Origin: Desulfobacula toluolica Tol2 | Lineage (GTDB): Bacteria > Desulfobacterota > Desulfobacteria > Desulfobacterales > Desulfobacteraceae | NCBI RefSeq assembly: GCF_000307105.1 | Contig: NC_018645.1 | Span: 159,001 to 223,000 of the forward strand | DNA length: 64,000 bases | Reading direction: 5' to 3' | Shown here: positions 6,089 through 29,195 of the stretch, piece by piece | Layout of the letters: the number at the start of each line of letters is the position of its first letter | Numbering within the stretch: the first letter of the stretch is position 1 | Program-made: the position numbers and the translations under genes | Notes under the pieces: generated by a model | Database searches by the model: none | Seen by the model: the letters and a program-made list of their open reading frames with translations, nothing else | Told to the model about the DNA's origin: nothing

Positions 6089-6719
6089 TCAGGCCTTTAT
6101 ATTTGTTTCATTATATTTATCGATCAGTCTTTTAAGAATTTCATAGGGCTTTGCGCCCACAAGCCGGTCAAGCCCGATAAAAAAGCTTGGAACTGCGGCA
6201 ACACCCTTTGCTTTTGATAATTTCCAATCCGAATCCACGGCATCTGAGAACTTGCGGGTTTCAATCACTTTTTTGCCTTCGTTGTAATCCAGGCCTGCGC
6301 GTTCTGCCAGGCGTAATAACACATCTTTTTGGCCGATGTTTTCTCCGTTTGCAAAATACGCTTTAAAAGTTTCCATGTGGAAACTGTGACCACAGCCTTT
6401 TGTCTGGGCCCACAGCCCCATCTCATGGGCAAGACGGCTGTTATACGTCATTGTTGTGTTCTCAAAAGCCAGCCCAAATGTTTTGGCGGTTGTTTTCAGT
6501 TGATCCATCACTTTGTTCACATTAACCTTTCTTCCTTTTTTTTTAAACAGCTCTTCCAGAGACATGCCCTGTTCGGGTATGTCAGGATGAAGGGGAAATG
6601 CCCGCCATTTGATTTGAATATCATACTCTTTTTTTAATCTTTCAATACTCCCGGTAATGAAATAGCACCAGGGTCAAACATAATCTGAAAATATTTCAAG
6701 CTCCATAGATGAAACCATT
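6089..6719 (-). CDS. DsbA/FrnE-like thioredoxin-fold protein with in-frame TGA and a frame break
   Basis: The downstream 158 codons (from ATG 6565) are clearly the DsbA-family FrnE type, ending in the cis-Pro region KGVAAVPSFFIG. The expected N-terminus lies upstream. An ATG at 6719, 7 bases after GGAG, reads MVSSMELEIFSDYV, then TGA (6675-6677), then PWCYF. In the family this position is CPWC, so the TGA replaces the first active-site cysteine. After CYF the homologous reading (ITGSIERLKKEYD) continues in the neighbouring frame, which runs open into the main ORF. One extra T in the run near 6659-6664 would explain this. So it is either a selenoprotein (UPWC) with a one-base sequencing error, or a decaying gene. 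The downstream frame alone could start at an ATG at 6682 but has no ribosome site and lacks the active site. Confidence 0.6.
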
Positions 6720-6768
6720 GTTTTTCTCCTTTAATTTTTTGTTGTGGCAGCTTGATCTGCCATGATGA

Positions 6769-11521: not shown

Positions 11522-11688
11522 AAACAGGAAGATTTAGACGCCCCAGTATTAACCCTGATTGAGGAGGGGAGGTCTTATCGATTTATTGCAAGAGAACTCA
11601 ATATAAGCAAAAATACTGTTTTGGGCATCGTTCAGCGACACCGTGAATAAATTTGACACTTGGTAGTGCGAATGTTGGGATTACCCCT
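11522..11688 (+). pseudogene. dispersed repeat R2, left copy: helix-turn-helix ORF remnant
   Basis: These 167 bp reappear inverted at 49031-49197 with about four differences. The plus strand encodes QEDLDAPVLTLIEEG then SYRFIARELNISKNTVLGIV, a helix-turn-helix of the type found in transposases and resolvases. The reading frame stops at 11650, and an upstream in-frame stop lies near 11478, so it is a fragment. Together with R1 it marks the left boundary of the catabolic island. The 11006-11930 gap holds R1, R2 and the IS1595-like fragment but no intact gene. Confidence 0.6.
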
Positions 11689-20641: not shown

Positions 20642-21503
20642 GTAACGAACTCCTTATTGATAAACGGCATTCCATTTCAGTTTTTTAAATGGTGGCTCAG
20701 TTAATCCAGAGTTGCAAACTTTTTATGAATATTATTTATTATATATTCTTTATGAGTGTTATTCAACCACGATAGCCTTGGGAATGTCAAGAGCTTTTTT
20801 TTGTTTTTTTTTATTTATTGGGTTTTGTGTTGAGTCGGCAGGAATTTGTTCTGTAGTTGTTATACTGTGGAGAAGTGCTAATTGTGTGCAAGGAGGTCAA
20901 ATGACGATTTATTTGAATGACGGTTTCCTGTATTGTTATGATGGTGGTGGTGTCATTATTGAATTAAAACCTTATTTTTTTTCTATGGTAAAATAGATTT
21001 TCCCTCAGTCTAAAATTAAATTTGGCGTATTCTGTCCGGTTTAAGAAGCCCCGTAGTAATAAAAGACGTCTCAGAGAATCTTCACTGTCAAGGAAAGTGC
21101 TTATCATTGGCATGTCTCTACGGTTGTCGTAAAAAATATACTTTAGAATAGTTAAACATTGGATTTAAATTCATATATTTTAAATCTATGATTAATATTC
21201 TTATAATTTTATATAAATATATATAGAGTTAATTTTTTGATCTGATTGGATTCATTTTTTTTGCTTTATGTTATTTTACATAAAAATCAGGTAATTGAAT
21301 TTTTAAAGTGAGTTGTATTAAAAAATATAGCGAAAATATATCTGATAAAATCTAAAAATATAGTTGACTGAATAAAACATTTATGATGGAATATTGTTCA
21401 TGATTATAAAATTTTGAGTTTTTTTCCCAACGCTGAAATCAATCAACCGCATTATAAAATTGAGAAATTGATTTCTGAACAAAACATTTAAGAAGGAGGC
21501 CAT
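20642..21503. promoter_or_regulatory. AT-rich divergent control region between bssD and bbsA copy 1
   Basis: These 862 bp are very AT-rich and must hold the promoters for both bss and the first bbsAB. I see no sigma-54 element with correct spacing. From about 20989 to 21417 the sequence is a diverged version of 27080-27506, upstream of bbsAB copy 2. From 21418 on the two are identical. A short ORF with a strong ribosome site lies at 20901-20996. Confidence 0.5.
20901..20996 (+). CDS. possible 31-aa leader peptide
   Basis: An ATG stands 4 bases after AGGAGG (20891-20896), one of the strongest ribosome sites in the window. It opens a 31-codon frame (MTIYLNDGFLYCYDGGG..., ending FFSMVK). There is no recognisable family. 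The perfect Shine-Dalgarno suggests real translation. Alternatively it is an accidental site in an AT-rich leader. The frame ends where the homology with the second bbs upstream region begins. Confidence 0.3.
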   Translation: MTIYLNDGFLYCYDGGGVIIELKPYFFSMVK

Positions 21504-23106
21504 ATGGCTGAAAAAAAGAAAACCCAAAAAGAGAAAGAGCCGGATATCACATTTTATCATCCGGATTTGCTTGAGATTCCCGAAAACGGATTGCCGTACC
21601 TTAAGGGGTATAAATGCAGAAAATGTGGTCAGCTTGATTTTCCCAAATTAACCCCTTGCCCCACCTGCTGGGGAGAGGACTTCGATGTGGTTCCCTTGTC
21701 CAGAAAGGGAATTTTGTACAGTTTTTCCGACCTTTATATCGGCCAGCCCGGTATGGCAACCCCCTATATTTGCGGCTATATTGATCTGCCGGAAGATATC
21801 AGAATTTTTGCCATGCTGAAAGGAGATGTCAATACCTTTAAATGTGACGAAGAAGTCGAATTGACAACGGGTCCGATAAGGAAGAATGCAGATGGTCTTC
21901 CAATTATCAGTTACATGTTCCAGAAAGTATAGGAGACGCATATGAGATTACAGCGAGATGTATATATAGCCGGAGTAGGTGAGACTGTTTTTGGCAGACA
22001 TAAAATGGATTACGATGAACTGGGACGTATGGCAGCTTTTCAGGCAATCAAATCTTCCAATATTGAAGGACCGGGGATGATTGAGAGTGCCTATGTGGGT
22101 AATGCCACTAACGGTATCGTTACCGGGCAGACTATTTTTAAAGACATCGGTATCTGCGGAACCGCTCCCATCATCAATGTGGAAAGTGCCTGTTCGGCCG
22201 GTGCTATGGCAGTCCATCTGGCCATAAAAGATGTGGCCTGCGGGCTGACGGAATTATCCATGGGCGTGGGGGCTGAAAATCATACTCTTCACAGAGAAGC
22301 GGGTACGGCATTCCAGCCGGCAATGAACGATATTGAAGCCGTCCACGGTGGGGTTATGACCGGTAAATATGCCATGCGCGCGACCCGGTATATGCACGAG
22401 ACCGGTGCCACTATTGAAGATCTGGCTTTGATCACCCAGAAAAGCAAGCGGCACGCCAAAAATAATCCTTATGCCCCTTTTGGGGGGGATTACAGTATTG
22501 AGGAAATTATTAATTCAAGAATGGTGGCCTATCCTCTGACGCTTCATCAGTGTTGTGGAATCGTTGATGGTGCAGGTGCTGTCGTGGTCTGTTCCGAGGA
22601 AATGATCAAAAAACTGGGGATTAAAAAACCGGTTAAAGTAAGAGGGTCCGTTGTGACATCCGGTCCGTATCATAACCGGCCAAGGGACATTACCGGTGAT
22701 GATATCACTGAAATGACATCTGAAATGCTCTATGAGGAATCCGGAATCGGCCCCAAAGACGTTGATATCCTGGAATTGCATGATGCCTTTACCATTGCTG
22801 AGTTGCTTTATTATGAATGCATGCAGCTGTGTGACAAAGGGGATGGCCTGAAATTTTTGAGAGACGGTCAGTCAACCTATGGCGGGCAGTGCGTTGTCAG
22901 TCCCAGGGGCGGAATGCTGTCCTATGGTCATCCCATCGGTGCTTCAGGTGCGGCCCAGGTAGCAGCCCAGGTAAAACAACTCAGGGGAGAGTGTCAGGGC
23001 TACCAGGTAGAGCCGATTCCAAAGGTTGCCATGACCCATGTAACCGGCGGCGGTCTTTCTGGTACTGAACATGCGGCCTGTACAATGCATATGCTCACAA
23101 GTGATT
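21418..23106 (+). repeat. bbsAB duplication, copy 1
   Basis: These 1,689 bp match 27507-29195 with no difference that I can see, over 86 bp of leader, bbsA, the spacer and bbsB up to its next-to-last codon. The flanks differ: upstream homology drops to a diverged alignment, and downstream the two copies part after GTGATT. Confidence 0.9.
21504..21932 (+). CDS. bbsA: benzoylsuccinyl-CoA thiolase small subunit (zinc ribbon/DUF35), copy 1
   Basis: This 142-aa protein has a zinc ribbon (CRKCGQLDFPKLTPCPTC, about residues 34-51) followed by an OB-fold of the DUF35 / acyl-CoA-associated type. BbsA of toluene degraders is the obligate partner of the thiolase BbsB. Together they cleave benzoylsuccinyl-CoA to benzoyl-CoA and succinyl-CoA. 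AAGGAGG precedes the ATG. bbsB starts 9 bp after its stop. The sequence is identical to the copy at 27593-28021. This copy has only bbsB behind it and is cut off from the rest of the bbs operon. Confidence 0.85.
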   Translation: MAEKKKTQKEKEPDITFYHPDLLEIPENGLPYLKGYKCRKCGQLDFPKLTPCPTCWGEDFDVVPLSRKGILYSFSDLYIGQPGMATPYICGYIDLPEDIRIFAMLKGDVNTFKCDEEVELTTGPIRKNADGLPIISYMFQKV

Positions 23107-23111
23107 TTTAA
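21942..23111 (+). CDS. bbsB: benzoylsuccinyl-CoA thiolase large subunit, copy 1
   Basis: This 389-aa SCP-2-type thiolase has its nucleophilic cysteine in [12 protein letters not shown] (about residue 83), the active-site histidine in [13 protein letters not shown] and the C-terminal THVTGGG motif. With BbsA it performs the last, CoA-dependent C-C cleavage of the benzylsuccinate pathway. It is identical to copy 2 except for the final residue: this copy ends SDF, the other SDW. The last codon and stop therefore come from the recombination junction, not from the ancestral gene. The protein should be functional. It ends in front of the structured RNA-like segment rather than bbsC. Confidence 0.85.
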
Positions 23112-23159
23112 GAATTCAATAAAATCAAATACTTAGCTTGGATCGGTATAATGACTAAT

Positions 23160-23640
23160 GAATGCAGCGAACAAGATGGGTTAAGCGTAGGCAGAGAATC
23201 TTGTAGGCCGTAGGGGTGATCGCGCGCACCCTGAAGTGCTGGTACAGCTTCGAAATGGTAATTGCGGATGCCGAGGGTTTCAACGTACGCCGAAGTTAAC
23301 ACAGAAGCATTCGTTAATGGCGAGAATGTGGAGGTCTGCCGGAGTCAACAGGCCGTGGCATGCAATAAGAGATCCGCTGTAGAACTCGGGAAGCCCCATT
23401 GCGCTCCTGACGTGGATAGTCCACGAACCAGGTGGGTCGTCGAAAGACGGCTATATGCCTTTGGGGTGTCTTAGAAGGCATAGTACTCAGAGTTTGGGAA
23501 ATCCAGCCACACGATTTTAACCGCTACAGCGGTGAAGGCAAGGGAAAGGACCTGACGGAAGCATGTAGCCCACAAAGGAAACTCATTCCGGCTTTTACAG
23601 TCGGGTAGTAATAAACTATCGGCACTTCCCCAAGGACGTG
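23160..23640 (+). ncRNA. highly structured RNA-like segment of unknown class
   Basis: About 480 bp have higher GC than their neighbours, no credible reading frame and many exact hairpins: CAAGAT/ATCTTG (23172-23203), GAAG/CTTC (23233-23251), CGTGGA-TAG-TCCACG (23411-23425), CGTC-GAAA-GACG with a GNRA tetraloop (23438-23449), ATGCCTT/AAGGCAT (23455-23481) and CCGC-TACA-GCGG (23521-23532). This looks like a ribozyme or guide-RNA scaffold. The 5' part of a group II intron and a HEARO (IscB omega) RNA are the two classes I would test. No reverse transcriptase, IscB or domain V-like hairpin is present, so it would be an orphan or remnant. It begins shortly after the bbsB copy 1 junction. Confidence 0.4.
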
Positions 23641-23668: not shown

Positions 23669-24571
23669 ATGAAGCTTTTTTTAAAATTGATGCTGGCTGT
23701 AGGATTTATTTTACTTTTGTCCACTTCAAGTCTCTATGCAACGGCAAACAATCATTATGTCAATGGCGGTGAGGGTGTAAAGGCCGCGACAGTTCCCCCT
23801 CCTGGTTTCTATTATCGCATGTACAATCTTTATTATACTGCCGATGAATTCATGGATGATAACGGGAATGAAACTCCCATTGATTTTGATGTGAATGTTT
23901 TTGCCGTCGTCAATAGGTTTATCTGGGTGACCGATAAAAAATTTCTTGGAGCCGATTTTTTTATGGATGCAGTACTCCCGATTGTATACACGGATATTGA
24001 AATCGGTGCTATGGGGCTGGATAAGGATGAGTTCGGTTTTGCAGATTTGCTTATTGAGCCAGTTGGCCTAGCCTGGCATGGTCCCAGATATGATGCTGTC
24101 GTGGCTCTCGGTGTCTGGTTGCCTTTTGGAGATTATGATATCAATAACGCGGCTTCCCCAGGCAAAGGCTTTACTACCTTTATGGCAACCTTTGGGGGAA
24201 CCCTTTATCTGGATGCCGCGAAAACCTGGTCCGCATCAGCCCTTGGCAGATATGAGATTCATACGGAACAAGATGATCACGACCTGACACCCGGTGATGA
24301 TTTCCATTTTGAATGGGGTATCGGCAAATCCTTTGCCAAAGTATGGGAAGCTGGATTGGCAGGCTATTGCCAGTGGCAGGTAAACGATGATTCAGGAGCA
24401 GATGCCGTGAACTCAGGCACCCATGATAAGGTTTTCGGCATAGGTCCTGAAATAGGCGTCTTTGTCCCCTCTCTCAAATCGTTTTTCAACCTGAGAAGCG
24501 TGTGGGAATTTGATGCAGAAGATCGGACTGAAGGAAACGTTGTTGCCCTGACCTTTACAAAAATATTTTAA
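23669..24571 (+). CDS. outer-membrane beta-barrel of the phenol/meta-pathway (FadL-like) type
   Basis: This 300-aa protein has a clear signal peptide (KLFLKLMLAVGFILLLSTSSLYA, cleavage after about residue 25). The mature part is rich in alternating aromatic/polar strands, ends in a beta-strand with terminal phenylalanine (VVALTFTKIF) and has an early PPPGFYYRMYNLYY segment typical of the Phenol_MetA_deg family. These barrels are encoded beside aromatic-degradation genes and are thought to let hydrophobic aromatics cross the outer membrane. AAAAGG precedes the ATG. It sits between the two bbsAB copies with a chemoreceptor gene, which fits uptake of the pathway substrate. Confidence 0.8.
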   Translation: MKLFLKLMLAVGFILLLSTSSLYATANNHYVNGGEGVKAATVPPPGFYYRMYNLYYTADEFMDDNGNETPIDFDVNVFAVVNRFIWVTDKKFLGADFFMDAVLPIVYTDIEIGAMGLDKDEFGFADLLIEPVGLAWHGPRYDAVVALGVWLPFGDYDINNAASPGKGFTTFMATFGGTLYLDAAKTWSASALGRYEIHTEQDDHDLTPGDDFHFEWGIGKSFAKVWEAGLAGYCQWQVNDDSGADAVNSGTHDKVFGIGPEIGVFVPSLKSFFNLRSVWEFDAEDRTEGNVVALTFTKIF

Positions 24572-24949: not shown

Positions 24950-26797
24950 ATGTTTAAGAATATGAAAATAGGCGCAAAGATAGCGTCAGGATTTACTCTC
25001 ATCACTATTTTGTGTGTTATGATGGGCATTATCGGTTGTGTGACTGTTAATAAAATTATTCATCAGATAGAAATTATAAAAATGGTCGAGGGACTTAAAG
25101 AAATTGGCGTCATAGCGGAACTGCAAAAGGTTAATTATTTTAATCATAAAGACGAAAAAAGTTTCAAGAATTTTGAAAAGGCTTTTCAGGATATTAAAAC
25201 CAATACGATGGACGTGCTGAAAATTGTGGATGACAGTAATACTCAAGACGCATTGAGAAATGTGCTTGAGCGCCAGAAGGCTTATGCTGGTGCAGGATAT
25301 AAAATGAATGATCTGGTACTCAAGATGAACAGTTCAAGTGATAAAATGCGTAATGCCGGTCGGGCTGTCGAGAGCTGTCTTAAAACAATGGAAGAAGCCA
25401 ATGAGCCCATGACGGCCTTTTTAAACGCCAGGCGCCAGGAAAAGAATGTAATTATTTACGGGGACAAATTCTTGCATAAAGGTGAAAAGACATACTTCCA
25501 GAAATATCAGGATGAAATGGTAAAAATAAATAACTGGCCAGGTACTGATGACCGGCTGAAAAGCCTGACATCAGAATATGAAGTTGCCGTTTTGCAACAA
25601 TTTAGCGAACAAAAACAGCTGGATAAAATCATTAATGAGATATCCCTTATTGGTCTGGGTGGGCTGAAGTCTATCGAGATTTCTCAGGATAAGTTTAAAG
25701 AGGTCGTTCTTGCAGGCCAGAATGCGGGCATAATGCTGATTGTTGTTGTTCTGGGGATATGCGTTTTAATGACAATTGTATTCGCTTTTTTCATTACACG
25801 CGGCATTACCAAACCGCTTAATAGTGTTATCGAAGGTTTGAGCGAGAGCTCCGAACAGGTTAATGCCGCCTCCGGTCAGGTTTCATCCGGCAGTCAATCC
25901 CTGGCTAATGGTGCTTCCGAGCAGGCAGCAAGTATTGAAGAGATATCATCATCCATTGAAGAAATGGCCTCCATGACCAAACAGAATGCGGATAATACGG
26001 GCCATGCGGACAGGATCATGAAAGAAACAGAACTGGAGCTTAACAAGGCCAATGATTTCATGTCTGAGTTGATCACATTCATGAAAGATATTTCCAATGC
26101 AAGCGATGAAACCCAGAAAGTCGTTAAAACAATAGATGAAATCGCATTCCAGACCAATTTATTAGCATTAAATGCGGCAGTAGAAGCAGCCCGCGCAGGC
26201 GAGGCAGGGGCAGGTTTTGCAGTAGTCGCGGAAGAGGTCAGGAATTTGGCACTCCGCTCTGCCGACGCAGCCAAGGATACGGCTATATTAATAGATGGGA
26301 CTGTAAAAAAGATTAAAGGTGGATCAGACCTGGTAGAGCGAACCAATAATGCATTTAGTAATGTTATGGAAAGTGCTTCCAGGATCGGTGAACTTGTTGG
26401 TGGGATTGCCGCGGTCTCCCAGGAACAGAGCCAGGGTATTGGTCAGATCAACACGGCTGTAGCAGAGATGAGCAAGGTAACCCAGAGCAACGCCGCAACC
26501 GCAGAAGAGTCTGCATCGGCTTCCGAGGAGATGAGTGCCCAGGCAGAGCAGCAGTTGGTATTTGTAGAAGAACTGGCAGGCCTGGTTGGCGAAAGCGGTA
26601 AAGATTTGGTGGCCACCAGGAGAGTGCAGAGATCAGGCTGGGAGTGGACAGGTAAAAAGACAGGAGTCGGAGTTCAAAAAATTCTTGCAGGCTCTGTGAA
26701 CAGGGCTGCCGGTAAAAATATAGCTGCTCATGGTATAAGAGAAGTCAGGCCTGAAGAGGTCATCCCCATGGAAGAAGTTGCTTTTAAGGACTTTTGA
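24950..26797 (+). CDS. methyl-accepting chemotaxis protein
   Basis: This 615-aa inner-membrane chemoreceptor has TM1 at about 13-35 ([19 protein letters not shown]), a helical periplasmic sensor of about 220 residues resembling a four-helix bundle, and TM2 at about 262-284 ([20 protein letters not shown]). A short HAMP-like linker ([12 protein letters not shown]) follows. The cytoplasmic signalling hairpin contains the conserved tip [19 protein letters not shown]. Methylation-helix Glu/Gln pairs flank it. AAAGGAGG precedes the ATG. Its place between hydrocarbon-catabolic genes suggests taxis toward the aromatic substrate or an electron acceptor, but the ligand is unknown. Confidence 0.88.
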
Positions 26798-27010: not shown

Positions 27011-27079
27011 GCGATTTTAAAAAAGCAAGATAAAAAAACTGGATCATCGAGTTTGTACACATGCAAAGAACTTCTTCAG

Positions 27080-27592
27080 TAAAATAGATTTACCCCTCAG
27101 TCTAAAATTAAAGTTGGCGTATTCTGTCCGATTTAAGACACCCCATAATAAAAGGCATCTCAGAGAATATTCACTGTTCAGGGAAATACTTCTCGTTGAT
27201 GGGTTGATTGGAATTTGGTGTGTTCCTTTAAATATTCGATTAAAATTCATATTTTTTAAATTTATGATTAATATTCTTATTAAAAATATATAGGGGTTGA
27301 CTTTTTTGATCCGATCGAGTTCGTTTTTTCTTAATGGTTTTTTACATAAAAATCAAGTGGTTGTATTTTTAAAACGGGTTGTATTAAAAAAAATATAGAG
27401 AAAATTTTTGATAAAAATATAAAATATGGTTGACTGAATAAAACATTTATGGTGGAATATTATTCATCATAGTAAAATTTTGAGTATTTTTAATATTAAT
27501 TTTAAGGTTTTTTTCCCAACGCTGAAATCAATCAACCGCATTATAAAATTGAGAAATTGATTTCTGAACAAAACATTTAAGAAGGAGGCCAT
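27080..27592. promoter_or_regulatory. leader region of the main bbs operon
   Basis: This AT-rich, gene-free leader aligns with 20989-21503: diverged with indels (including an extra stretch around 27485-27506) up to 27506, then identical for the last 86 bp before ATG. Shared blocks include TAAAATAGATTT and GTTGACTGAATAAAACATTTATG, which may hold a common promoter or operator. Confidence 0.45.
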
Positions 27593-29195
27593 ATGGCTGA
27601 AAAAAAGAAAACCCAAAAAGAGAAAGAGCCGGATATCACATTTTATCATCCGGATTTGCTTGAGATTCCCGAAAACGGATTGCCGTACCTTAAGGGGTAT
27701 AAATGCAGAAAATGTGGTCAGCTTGATTTTCCCAAATTAACCCCTTGCCCCACCTGCTGGGGAGAGGACTTCGATGTGGTTCCCTTGTCCAGAAAGGGAA
27801 TTTTGTACAGTTTTTCCGACCTTTATATCGGCCAGCCCGGTATGGCAACCCCCTATATTTGCGGCTATATTGATCTGCCGGAAGATATCAGAATTTTTGC
27901 CATGCTGAAAGGAGATGTCAATACCTTTAAATGTGACGAAGAAGTCGAATTGACAACGGGTCCGATAAGGAAGAATGCAGATGGTCTTCCAATTATCAGT
28001 TACATGTTCCAGAAAGTATAGGAGACGCATATGAGATTACAGCGAGATGTATATATAGCCGGAGTAGGTGAGACTGTTTTTGGCAGACATAAAATGGATT
28101 ACGATGAACTGGGACGTATGGCAGCTTTTCAGGCAATCAAATCTTCCAATATTGAAGGACCGGGGATGATTGAGAGTGCCTATGTGGGTAATGCCACTAA
28201 CGGTATCGTTACCGGGCAGACTATTTTTAAAGACATCGGTATCTGCGGAACCGCTCCCATCATCAATGTGGAAAGTGCCTGTTCGGCCGGTGCTATGGCA
28301 GTCCATCTGGCCATAAAAGATGTGGCCTGCGGGCTGACGGAATTATCCATGGGCGTGGGGGCTGAAAATCATACTCTTCACAGAGAAGCGGGTACGGCAT
28401 TCCAGCCGGCAATGAACGATATTGAAGCCGTCCACGGTGGGGTTATGACCGGTAAATATGCCATGCGCGCGACCCGGTATATGCACGAGACCGGTGCCAC
28501 TATTGAAGATCTGGCTTTGATCACCCAGAAAAGCAAGCGGCACGCCAAAAATAATCCTTATGCCCCTTTTGGGGGGGATTACAGTATTGAGGAAATTATT
28601 AATTCAAGAATGGTGGCCTATCCTCTGACGCTTCATCAGTGTTGTGGAATCGTTGATGGTGCAGGTGCTGTCGTGGTCTGTTCCGAGGAAATGATCAAAA
28701 AACTGGGGATTAAAAAACCGGTTAAAGTAAGAGGGTCCGTTGTGACATCCGGTCCGTATCATAACCGGCCAAGGGACATTACCGGTGATGATATCACTGA
28801 AATGACATCTGAAATGCTCTATGAGGAATCCGGAATCGGCCCCAAAGACGTTGATATCCTGGAATTGCATGATGCCTTTACCATTGCTGAGTTGCTTTAT
28901 TATGAATGCATGCAGCTGTGTGACAAAGGGGATGGCCTGAAATTTTTGAGAGACGGTCAGTCAACCTATGGCGGGCAGTGCGTTGTCAGTCCCAGGGGCG
29001 GAATGCTGTCCTATGGTCATCCCATCGGTGCTTCAGGTGCGGCCCAGGTAGCAGCCCAGGTAAAACAACTCAGGGGAGAGTGTCAGGGCTACCAGGTAGA
29101 GCCGATTCCAAAGGTTGCCATGACCCATGTAACCGGCGGCGGTCTTTCTGGTACTGAACATGCGGCCTGTACAATGCATATGCTCACAAGTGATT
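27507..29195 (+). repeat. bbsAB duplication, copy 2
   Basis: These 1,689 bp match 21418-23106 without visible difference, at an offset of 6,089 bp. This copy continues into bbsC and the remaining pathway genes, so it is the operon-linked, probably original, locus. Confidence 0.9.
27593..28021 (+). CDS. bbsA: benzoylsuccinyl-CoA thiolase small subunit, copy 2
   Basis: Its protein is identical to the product of 21504-21932: 142 aa, a zinc ribbon with two CxxC pairs and an OB-fold. This copy heads the full operon bbsA-B-C-D-E-F-G-H. The ribosome site (AAGGAGG) and leader are part of the identical block, so translation rates should be equal. Any difference in expression must come from the diverged DNA upstream of 27507. 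Confidence 0.87.
   Translation: MAEKKKTQKEKEPDITFYHPDLLEIPENGLPYLKGYKCRKCGQLDFPKLTPCPTCWGEDFDVVPLSRKGILYSFSDLYIGQPGMATPYICGYIDLPEDIRIFAMLKGDVNTFKCDEEVELTTGPIRKNADGLPIISYMFQKV

Follow-up and report, generated by a model that had tools for sequence, protein, structure and literature searches.

Does the in-frame TGA near the start of a DsbA/FrnE-like gene of Desulfobacula toluolica Tol2 end translation, or does it specify selenocysteine (Sec) in place of the first cysteine of an active-site motif? The gene is encoded by the minus strand within a stretch of 64,000 nucleotides (NC_018645.1, positions 159,001 to 223,000), which we refer to here as the window and whose numbering is used for all of its features. 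A preliminary description had proposed a UPWC selenoprotein of the DsbA/FrnE type at this place, and its proposal is supported by the reading frame, by the sel genes of the genome and by the CPWC and UPWC homologues. We thus conclude that this is almost certainly a true bacterial selenoprotein gene, encoding a protein of predicted FrnE-type DsbA fold with a U-P-W-C site and Sec at codon 15.

A single reading frame with an internal TGA

The coding sequence (6089..6718, minus strand) starts with an ATG at 6718-6716, 7 nt upstream of which the sequence contains a Shine-Dalgarno-like AGGAG (6726..6730, minus strand), and it ends with a TGA at 6091-6089. With its internal TGA read as Sec, this DsbA/FrnE-like frame yields 209 amino acids, and its only in-frame stops are the TGA of codon 15 (6674..6676, minus strand), a codon shared with relatives, and the terminal TGA of codon 210. 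The uninterrupted translation reads MVSSMELEIFSDYV-U-PWCYFITGSIERLKKEYDIQ..., in which codons 15 to 18 (6665..6676, minus strand) give the active-site motif U-P-W-C; residues 15, 16 and 18 of this motif are invariant in an alignment of 41 sequences. No signal sequence was obvious by eye in the 209-residue product.

The products of the neighboring genes, a PAS-domain sigma-54 regulator, a methyltransferase-like protein and a copper-type P-ATPase, do not point to a substrate. The sigma-54 regulator gene (6061-4271) shares the frame of the selenoprotein gene and starts nine codons past its terminal TGA, and a double read-through would thus fuse both products; this shared frame is probably a coincidence. 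Shared neighbors were not seen when the open reading frame (ORF) lists around the gene copies L051 and L052 only were compared by eye, a weak comparison in which L051 offers only ∼1 kb of sequence ahead of the gene and L052 only ∼0.3 kb past it.

The TGA is shared with relatives

When 395 genomes from the phylum were searched with the protein, stops being read through, 78 of them matched at E <= 1e-20, including that of D. toluolica itself. In the 77 other matching genomes, codon 15 was TGA in 63 and a Cys codon in 13, and the site was uncovered in the remaining one; G137 is counted among the 63 TGA genomes from a fragment row. Further loci were added from named records, bringing the locus set to 159 (L021 to L179), including the D. 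toluolica copy as L021. The 80 loci added in this way are the best 80 of 112 and were found with a peptide pattern that had Cys at the site, so that the frequency of TGA among them (2/80) is not a fair ratio. Across all 159 loci, codon 15 was TGA in 66, TGC or TGT in 91 and uncovered in 2, and no other residue occurred. Since 66 TGA and 91 TGC/TGT codons fall at exactly the same codon, the TGA is not there by chance. The alignment with CPWC and UPWC homologues that had been suggested as a check thus shows either TGA or a Cys codon in every locus covering the site, and the position assigned to the TGA beforehand, that of the first Cys of CPWC, indeed matches the Cys codon of the homologues.

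Among the 66 TGA loci, 52 carry UPWC and 14 carry UPFC or UPYC. The Cys homologues with CPWC (Desulfocapsaceae, Desulfobulbaceae and Alphaproteobacteria) belong to the same family, at 35 to 46% identity, with Cys exactly at the Sec site. The Pro codon following the site was CCC in 47 of 51 UGA loci of more than 39% identity versus 29 of 91 Cys loci, a codon choice that agrees with the reading of this region as part of a putative selenocysteine insertion sequence (SECIS).

Might the gene nevertheless be a pseudogene, that is, an ordinary CPWC DsbA-like gene with a nonsense mutation? TGA is indeed only one base away from the Cys codons TGC and TGT. However, 63 of the 77 other matching genomes have the same TGA, with identities as low as 27%, and it was the sole stop within the aligned region in 66/66 TGA loci (the slightly longer match of genome G153 additionally shows a TAA). 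Also speaking against a pseudogene are the covarying hairpin downstream and the Sec machinery of the genome, both described below. Because the TGA is common to many genomes, we regard a nonsense mutation as very unlikely.

A covarying hairpin follows the TGA

Within the coding region, 20 nt after the TGA, the gene contains a candidate SECIS hairpin (6640..6662, minus strand) with arms at 6662-6654 and 6648-6640 and the loop CGGGA at 6653-6649. Eight of its nine pairs form in the D. toluolica gene, and the ninth is a U-U mismatch. The hairpin corresponds to columns 15-23 pairing with 29-37 in an alignment of the 52 UPWC UGA sequences (A1), where 80.8% of cells were paired. In these sequences, compensatory double changes were observed at 7 of the 9 pairs, amounting to 33 such cells compared with 7.2 in shuffles, and the covariation score of 0.261 (shuffles, 0.123) was reached by none of 500 shuffles. 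Further pair types numbered 13 and showed no excess, with 379 of 500 shuffles as high. Sliding the partner arm by 1 to 3 columns reduced pairing to 28 to 49%.

The same columns of the Cys homologues (52 of the 91 Cys loci, A3) showed no excess covariation, with 50.8% paired and 208 of 500 shuffles as high. Six or more of the seven inner pairs were present in 64 of 66 TGA loci versus only 4 of the 91 Cys loci; the other 87 Cys loci, with TGC or TGT instead of TGA, had fewer than 6. The hairpin was 87.3% paired in the 14 UPFC/UPYC sequences but excess covariation was absent among them, and one locus, L137, has the TGA and lacks the covarying hairpin. The nearest relatives, L051 and L052, share the U-U mismatch of the D. 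toluolica gene. The upper stem of the E. coli fdhF SECIS carries a bulged U, a part that the mismatch may play here.

The published bacterial SECIS (bSECIS) model describes a loop of 3 to 9 nt with a G within its first two positions, an upper stem of 4 to 16 bp, a distance of 16 to 37 nt from the UGA and an energy of -7.5 kcal/mol or lower (PMC13188914). The covarying hairpin agrees with this geometry, having a 5-nt loop, a G at loop position 2, a stem of 8 pairs with one U-U mismatch among them and a distance of 20 nt from the UGA. Against it stands its energy in the D. toluolica gene, -4.2 kcal/mol by the hairpin alone; 18 of the 66 TGA loci reach the limit of -7.5 kcal/mol in this manner. 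The 45 nt starting at the TGA have -9.4 kcal/mol in their minimum-energy fold, which contains a stem other than the covarying hairpin. An Rfam search of 161 nt around the TGA (E <= 10) returned three matches, all far below their gathering scores.

A different hairpin directly after the TGA, CCC-GGU pairing with ACC-GGG (6650..6673, minus strand), had been put forward earlier as the SECIS. This pairing does form in silico, being present with small shifts in the minimum-energy 45-nt fold (z, -1.57; 14 of 200 shuffles as stable). Its proposed role did not hold, however: in the 52 UPWC UGA sequences, double changes were seen at none of its pairs and covariation equaled that of shuffles. Lacking compensatory changes and having its loop nearer to the UGA than the published 16 to 37 nt, this pairing was rejected as a SECIS. 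The comparison of aligned sequences makes the hairpin at 6662-6640 the better-supported SECIS candidate of the two.

Selenocysteine machinery of the genome

As the preliminary description had noted, the window itself holds no Sec machinery; the genes are located elsewhere on the same contig, which makes their absence from the window immaterial. The D. toluolica genome, a single contig of 5,197,905 bases, contains selA (605.6 bits), selB (358.7 bits) and selD (360 bits), all scoring over their cut-offs, together with a tRNA-Sec (76.5 bits) whose anticodon is TCA according to ARAGORN. The genome check proposed for selA, selB and selC therefore found every component looked for, with selD in addition. 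Across the 77 other matching genomes, selA was over the cut-off in 72, namely, in 62 of 63 TGA genomes, 10 of 13 Cys genomes and 0 of 1 with the site uncovered; the difference between TGA and Cys genomes corresponds to a Fisher p of 0.015.

Two further observations were made on these genes. The selD gene of D. toluolica (L010, G000:C1:2134729-2135649) itself holds one internal TGA and thus probably encodes another selenoprotein. The TGA-form locus L144 lies in a genome (G198) without selA over the cut-off, a draft of ∼240 contigs.

We propose that SelB and Sec-tRNA(Sec) would read the UGA of codon 15 as selenocysteine and that the coding-region hairpin, 20 nt further on, would direct this insertion. 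The UGA could instead be decoded as another amino acid or be read through inefficiently. We consider this highly improbable, given that the aligned residue is always Cys in the 91 non-TGA loci covering the site and that selA, selB, selD and tRNA-Sec are all present in the genome.

Protein family and predicted fold

The translated protein, of which a piece of 207 residues was scanned, matches PF01323 (DSBA) with an E value of 3.6e-35 and 121.9 bits (cut-off, 25.6) from residue 4 to residue 196 of that piece, and at E <= 0.001 the selenoprotein gene is the single PF01323 match in the genome. A scan against NCBIfam gave as its sole match NF041057, the Rcas_1661 family thioredoxin-like (seleno)lipoprotein, which covers residues 118-198 only and, with 36.4 bits against a cut-off of 190, lies far under the threshold; this assignment was rejected.

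An AlphaFold2 model built from a 41-row alignment reached a mean pLDDT of 94.0. In the predicted secondary structure (strand 5-11, helices 16-20 and 22-31, strand 34-40), Sec15 would be placed immediately before helix 16-20. The alignment (A4) comprises the D. toluolica gene together with 40 sequences from the remaining 158 loci, with Sec written as Cys, and positions 12, 15, 16, 18, 19, 45, 48, 51, 177 and 188 are invariant in it. Val176-Pro177 (6188..6193, minus strand) would form the expected cis-Pro loop, with P177 invariant and V176 in at least 90% of the 41 rows; Pro177 is presumably the cis-proline opposite the active site, as we assume from the thioredoxin fold.

In Foldseek comparisons of the model, ranks 1 to 5 were taken by structures of Deinococcus radiodurans FrnE (5xwh, 5co3, 5coh, 5cp1 and 5cnw; TM, 0.88 to 0.91 on the predicted structure), the best PDB matches having 24% identity. 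By sequence, too, the nearest solved proteins were D. radiodurans FrnE (E, 2.6e-17 over query residues 5-190) and SCO1869 (E, 3.1e-10). We propose that in this 209-residue product, with its U-P-W-C active site in a predicted FrnE-type DsbA fold, Sec15 would be the nucleophile that attacks during thiol-disulfide exchange and Cys18 would then resolve the Se-S intermediate. By analogy with D. radiodurans FrnE, the protein is most likely a cytoplasmic disulfide reductase or isomerase.

The fold also bears on whether the real product might be a shorter one, the 158-amino-acid ORF (6565-6089) beginning at codon 52. This ORF is what mechanical ORF listing gives. Such a product, however, would lose the motif and helices of the active site together with the strands before and after them, and most invariant columns of the 41-row alignment, up to G51, sit in the 5' part, which moreover has its own AGGAG and ATG; it is therefore hardly credible as the true product. 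For the same reading frame, a frameshift or sequencing error in the T run after CYF, supported by the earlier reading alone, can be dismissed as next to impossible, since the frame as sequenced has a length that is a multiple of 3, stays open through the T run with stops at codons 15 and 210 only, and is followed by homology across the run without a shift. The one-base shift once suspected there is thus refuted, and removal of a T, considered as a way to restore a single frame, is superfluous, the frame being single already with no base removed.

For the selenoprotein gene proper, gene calling that treats TGA as a stop leaves a 158-amino-acid fragment without the active site. Since this is the sole PF01323 match found in the genome, missing the gene deletes the DsbA family from the annotation.

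Other features of the window

A direct repeat of ∼2.1 kb is present at 20988-23106 and 27079-29195, 94.7% identical over 2,148 columns. The first copy contains two genes, one of the zf-ChsH2/OB-fold type and one thiolase-like, and the second contains ORFs of equal lengths, including a thiolase-like one; we take this pair to recall bbsA/bbsB of anaerobic toluene degradation. Directly past the first copy lies a group-II-D1D4-6 match (23111-23355; Rfam, 49.4 bits with a cut-off of 49), and a group II intron was the only match in an Rfam scan of the whole window. The ORFs following it (23669-24571 and 24950-26797) did not match reverse transcriptase and instead matched other families. In addition, two inverted copies of a 167-bp sequence with 97.6% identity were observed at 11522-11688 and 49197-49031, both in stretches without a long ORF.

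Exchange between selenocysteine and cysteine

We compared the Sec and Cys forms in two trees, one of 156 rows, made without the 2 loci that do not cover the site and without one duplicate protein, and one of 71 rows, from which the Sec residue was excluded and which does not include L153, the 14 UPFC/UPYC rows or the majority of the Cys rows. The 156-row tree needs 10 Sec/Cys changes, 4 of them forced by starred (well-supported) branches; the 71-row tree needs 5, and with starred branches alone the minimum for the Sec label is 3. The eight Cys rows that stood among Sec rows in the 156-row tree form four groups in the 71-row tree (L081; L071; L053, L055, L058 and L059; and L050 and L133), of which starred branches alone force two; these groups were chosen after seeing the 156-row tree, and the 71-row bootstrap was not quite settled. 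A topology that gathers the 51 Sec rows on a single side was rejected for the 71-row tree (p-AU, 7.8e-05; group chosen post hoc). Two of the Cys forms, L050 and L133, still have selA in their genomes.

As both trees are unrooted, they do not distinguish gain of Sec from its loss. One locus bears on this point in another way: L081, from a Geobacteraceae metagenome-assembled genome, carries TGT at the Sec site and behind it a SECIS-like hairpin (L081:3104-3148) with the loop CGTGC and an energy of -7.3 kcal/mol. This hairpin is a probable, almost intact SECIS relic, and a change from Sec to Cys is therefore favored at this locus. A SECIS-like hairpin behind a Cys codon may, however, arise by chance, as the Cys-form locus L121 (Chloroflexota) has 7/7 hairpin pairs although its near kin in the 156-row tree include no Sec row.

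We are evenly divided on whether the Desulfobacterota-type UPWC protein would be an old selenoprotein from which Cys forms arose repeatedly, four times on the tree; because the tree is unrooted and its well-supported branches alone force only two groups, the direction and number of the changes are what we infer from it. A survey from 2006 described Sec-to-Cys replacement in four families only, mostly FdhA and SelD, and showed two examples of remnant SECIS elements (PMC1794560). If true, our reading would mean that recurrent Sec-to-Cys conversion is more frequent among thiol-redox families than the survey indicated. We regard as mildly new that, on the 71-row tree, Cys forms occur at four separate places among Sec forms, one of them with a probable SECIS relic. 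The 66 UGA loci with a covarying SECIS candidate and the 91 Cys loci mostly without it constitute a natural data set, which serves to study both the rules of the SECIS in Desulfobacterota and the direction of Sec/Cys exchange.

Comparison with known systems

FrnE of D. radiodurans (5xwh, 5co3) and SCO1869 (3gl5) share the predicted fold of the selenoprotein (TM, 0.85 to 0.91 on the model). The active-site motif of Deinococcus FrnE is CP(W/F)C (PMC8945050), whereas the equivalent site of the selenoprotein is UPWC, with Sec for the first Cys. The selenoprotein is also shorter and, in contrast to FrnE, lacks the C-terminal CXXXXC, having no Cys beyond residue 109; this second motif is described as present in many FrnE homologues and missing in some (PMC8945050). 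The same source proposes that D. radiodurans FrnE acts in the cytoplasm as a disulfide reductase and reports that its mutant is sensitive to cadmium and diamide.

In the literature that we searched, titles and beginnings of abstracts do not name the gene, although we do not claim its absence from print. Likewise, those on selenoprotein and FrnE mention no FrnE selenoprotein. Our searches found no literature joining selenocysteine, DsbA and Desulfobacterota, and UPWC appeared as a word in unrelated papers only. A marine relative of Desulfobacula has been reported to possess 34 putative selenoproteins (PMC8318568); the word DsbA is absent from the main text of that report and from that of the deep-Sep paper (PMC12013277).

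DsbA-like selenoproteins as such are well documented. Nine DsbA-like UxxC sequences of COG2761 were reported in 2005 from the Sargasso Sea set (PMC1088965), and further examples in 2006 from Anaeromyxobacter dehalogenans, Desulfovibrio desulfuricans and Desulfotomaculum reducens (PMC1794560). The GOS data include a row 'DsbA 1' with pfam01323 and UxxC (PMC2398784), and DsbA-like selenoproteins appear again in lists from 2022 and 2026 (PMC9312934, PMC13188914). As far as these proteins are described in PMC1088965, PMC2398784 and PMC13188914, they resemble the D. toluolica protein in belonging to PF01323, in having Sec within UxxC and in having a stem-loop after the UGA. Judged by domain, COG and motif, the gene would belong to 'DsbA-like protein form 1'. 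Its reading as a further DsbA-like UxxC selenoprotein, of a type already described since 2005, is thus well supported.
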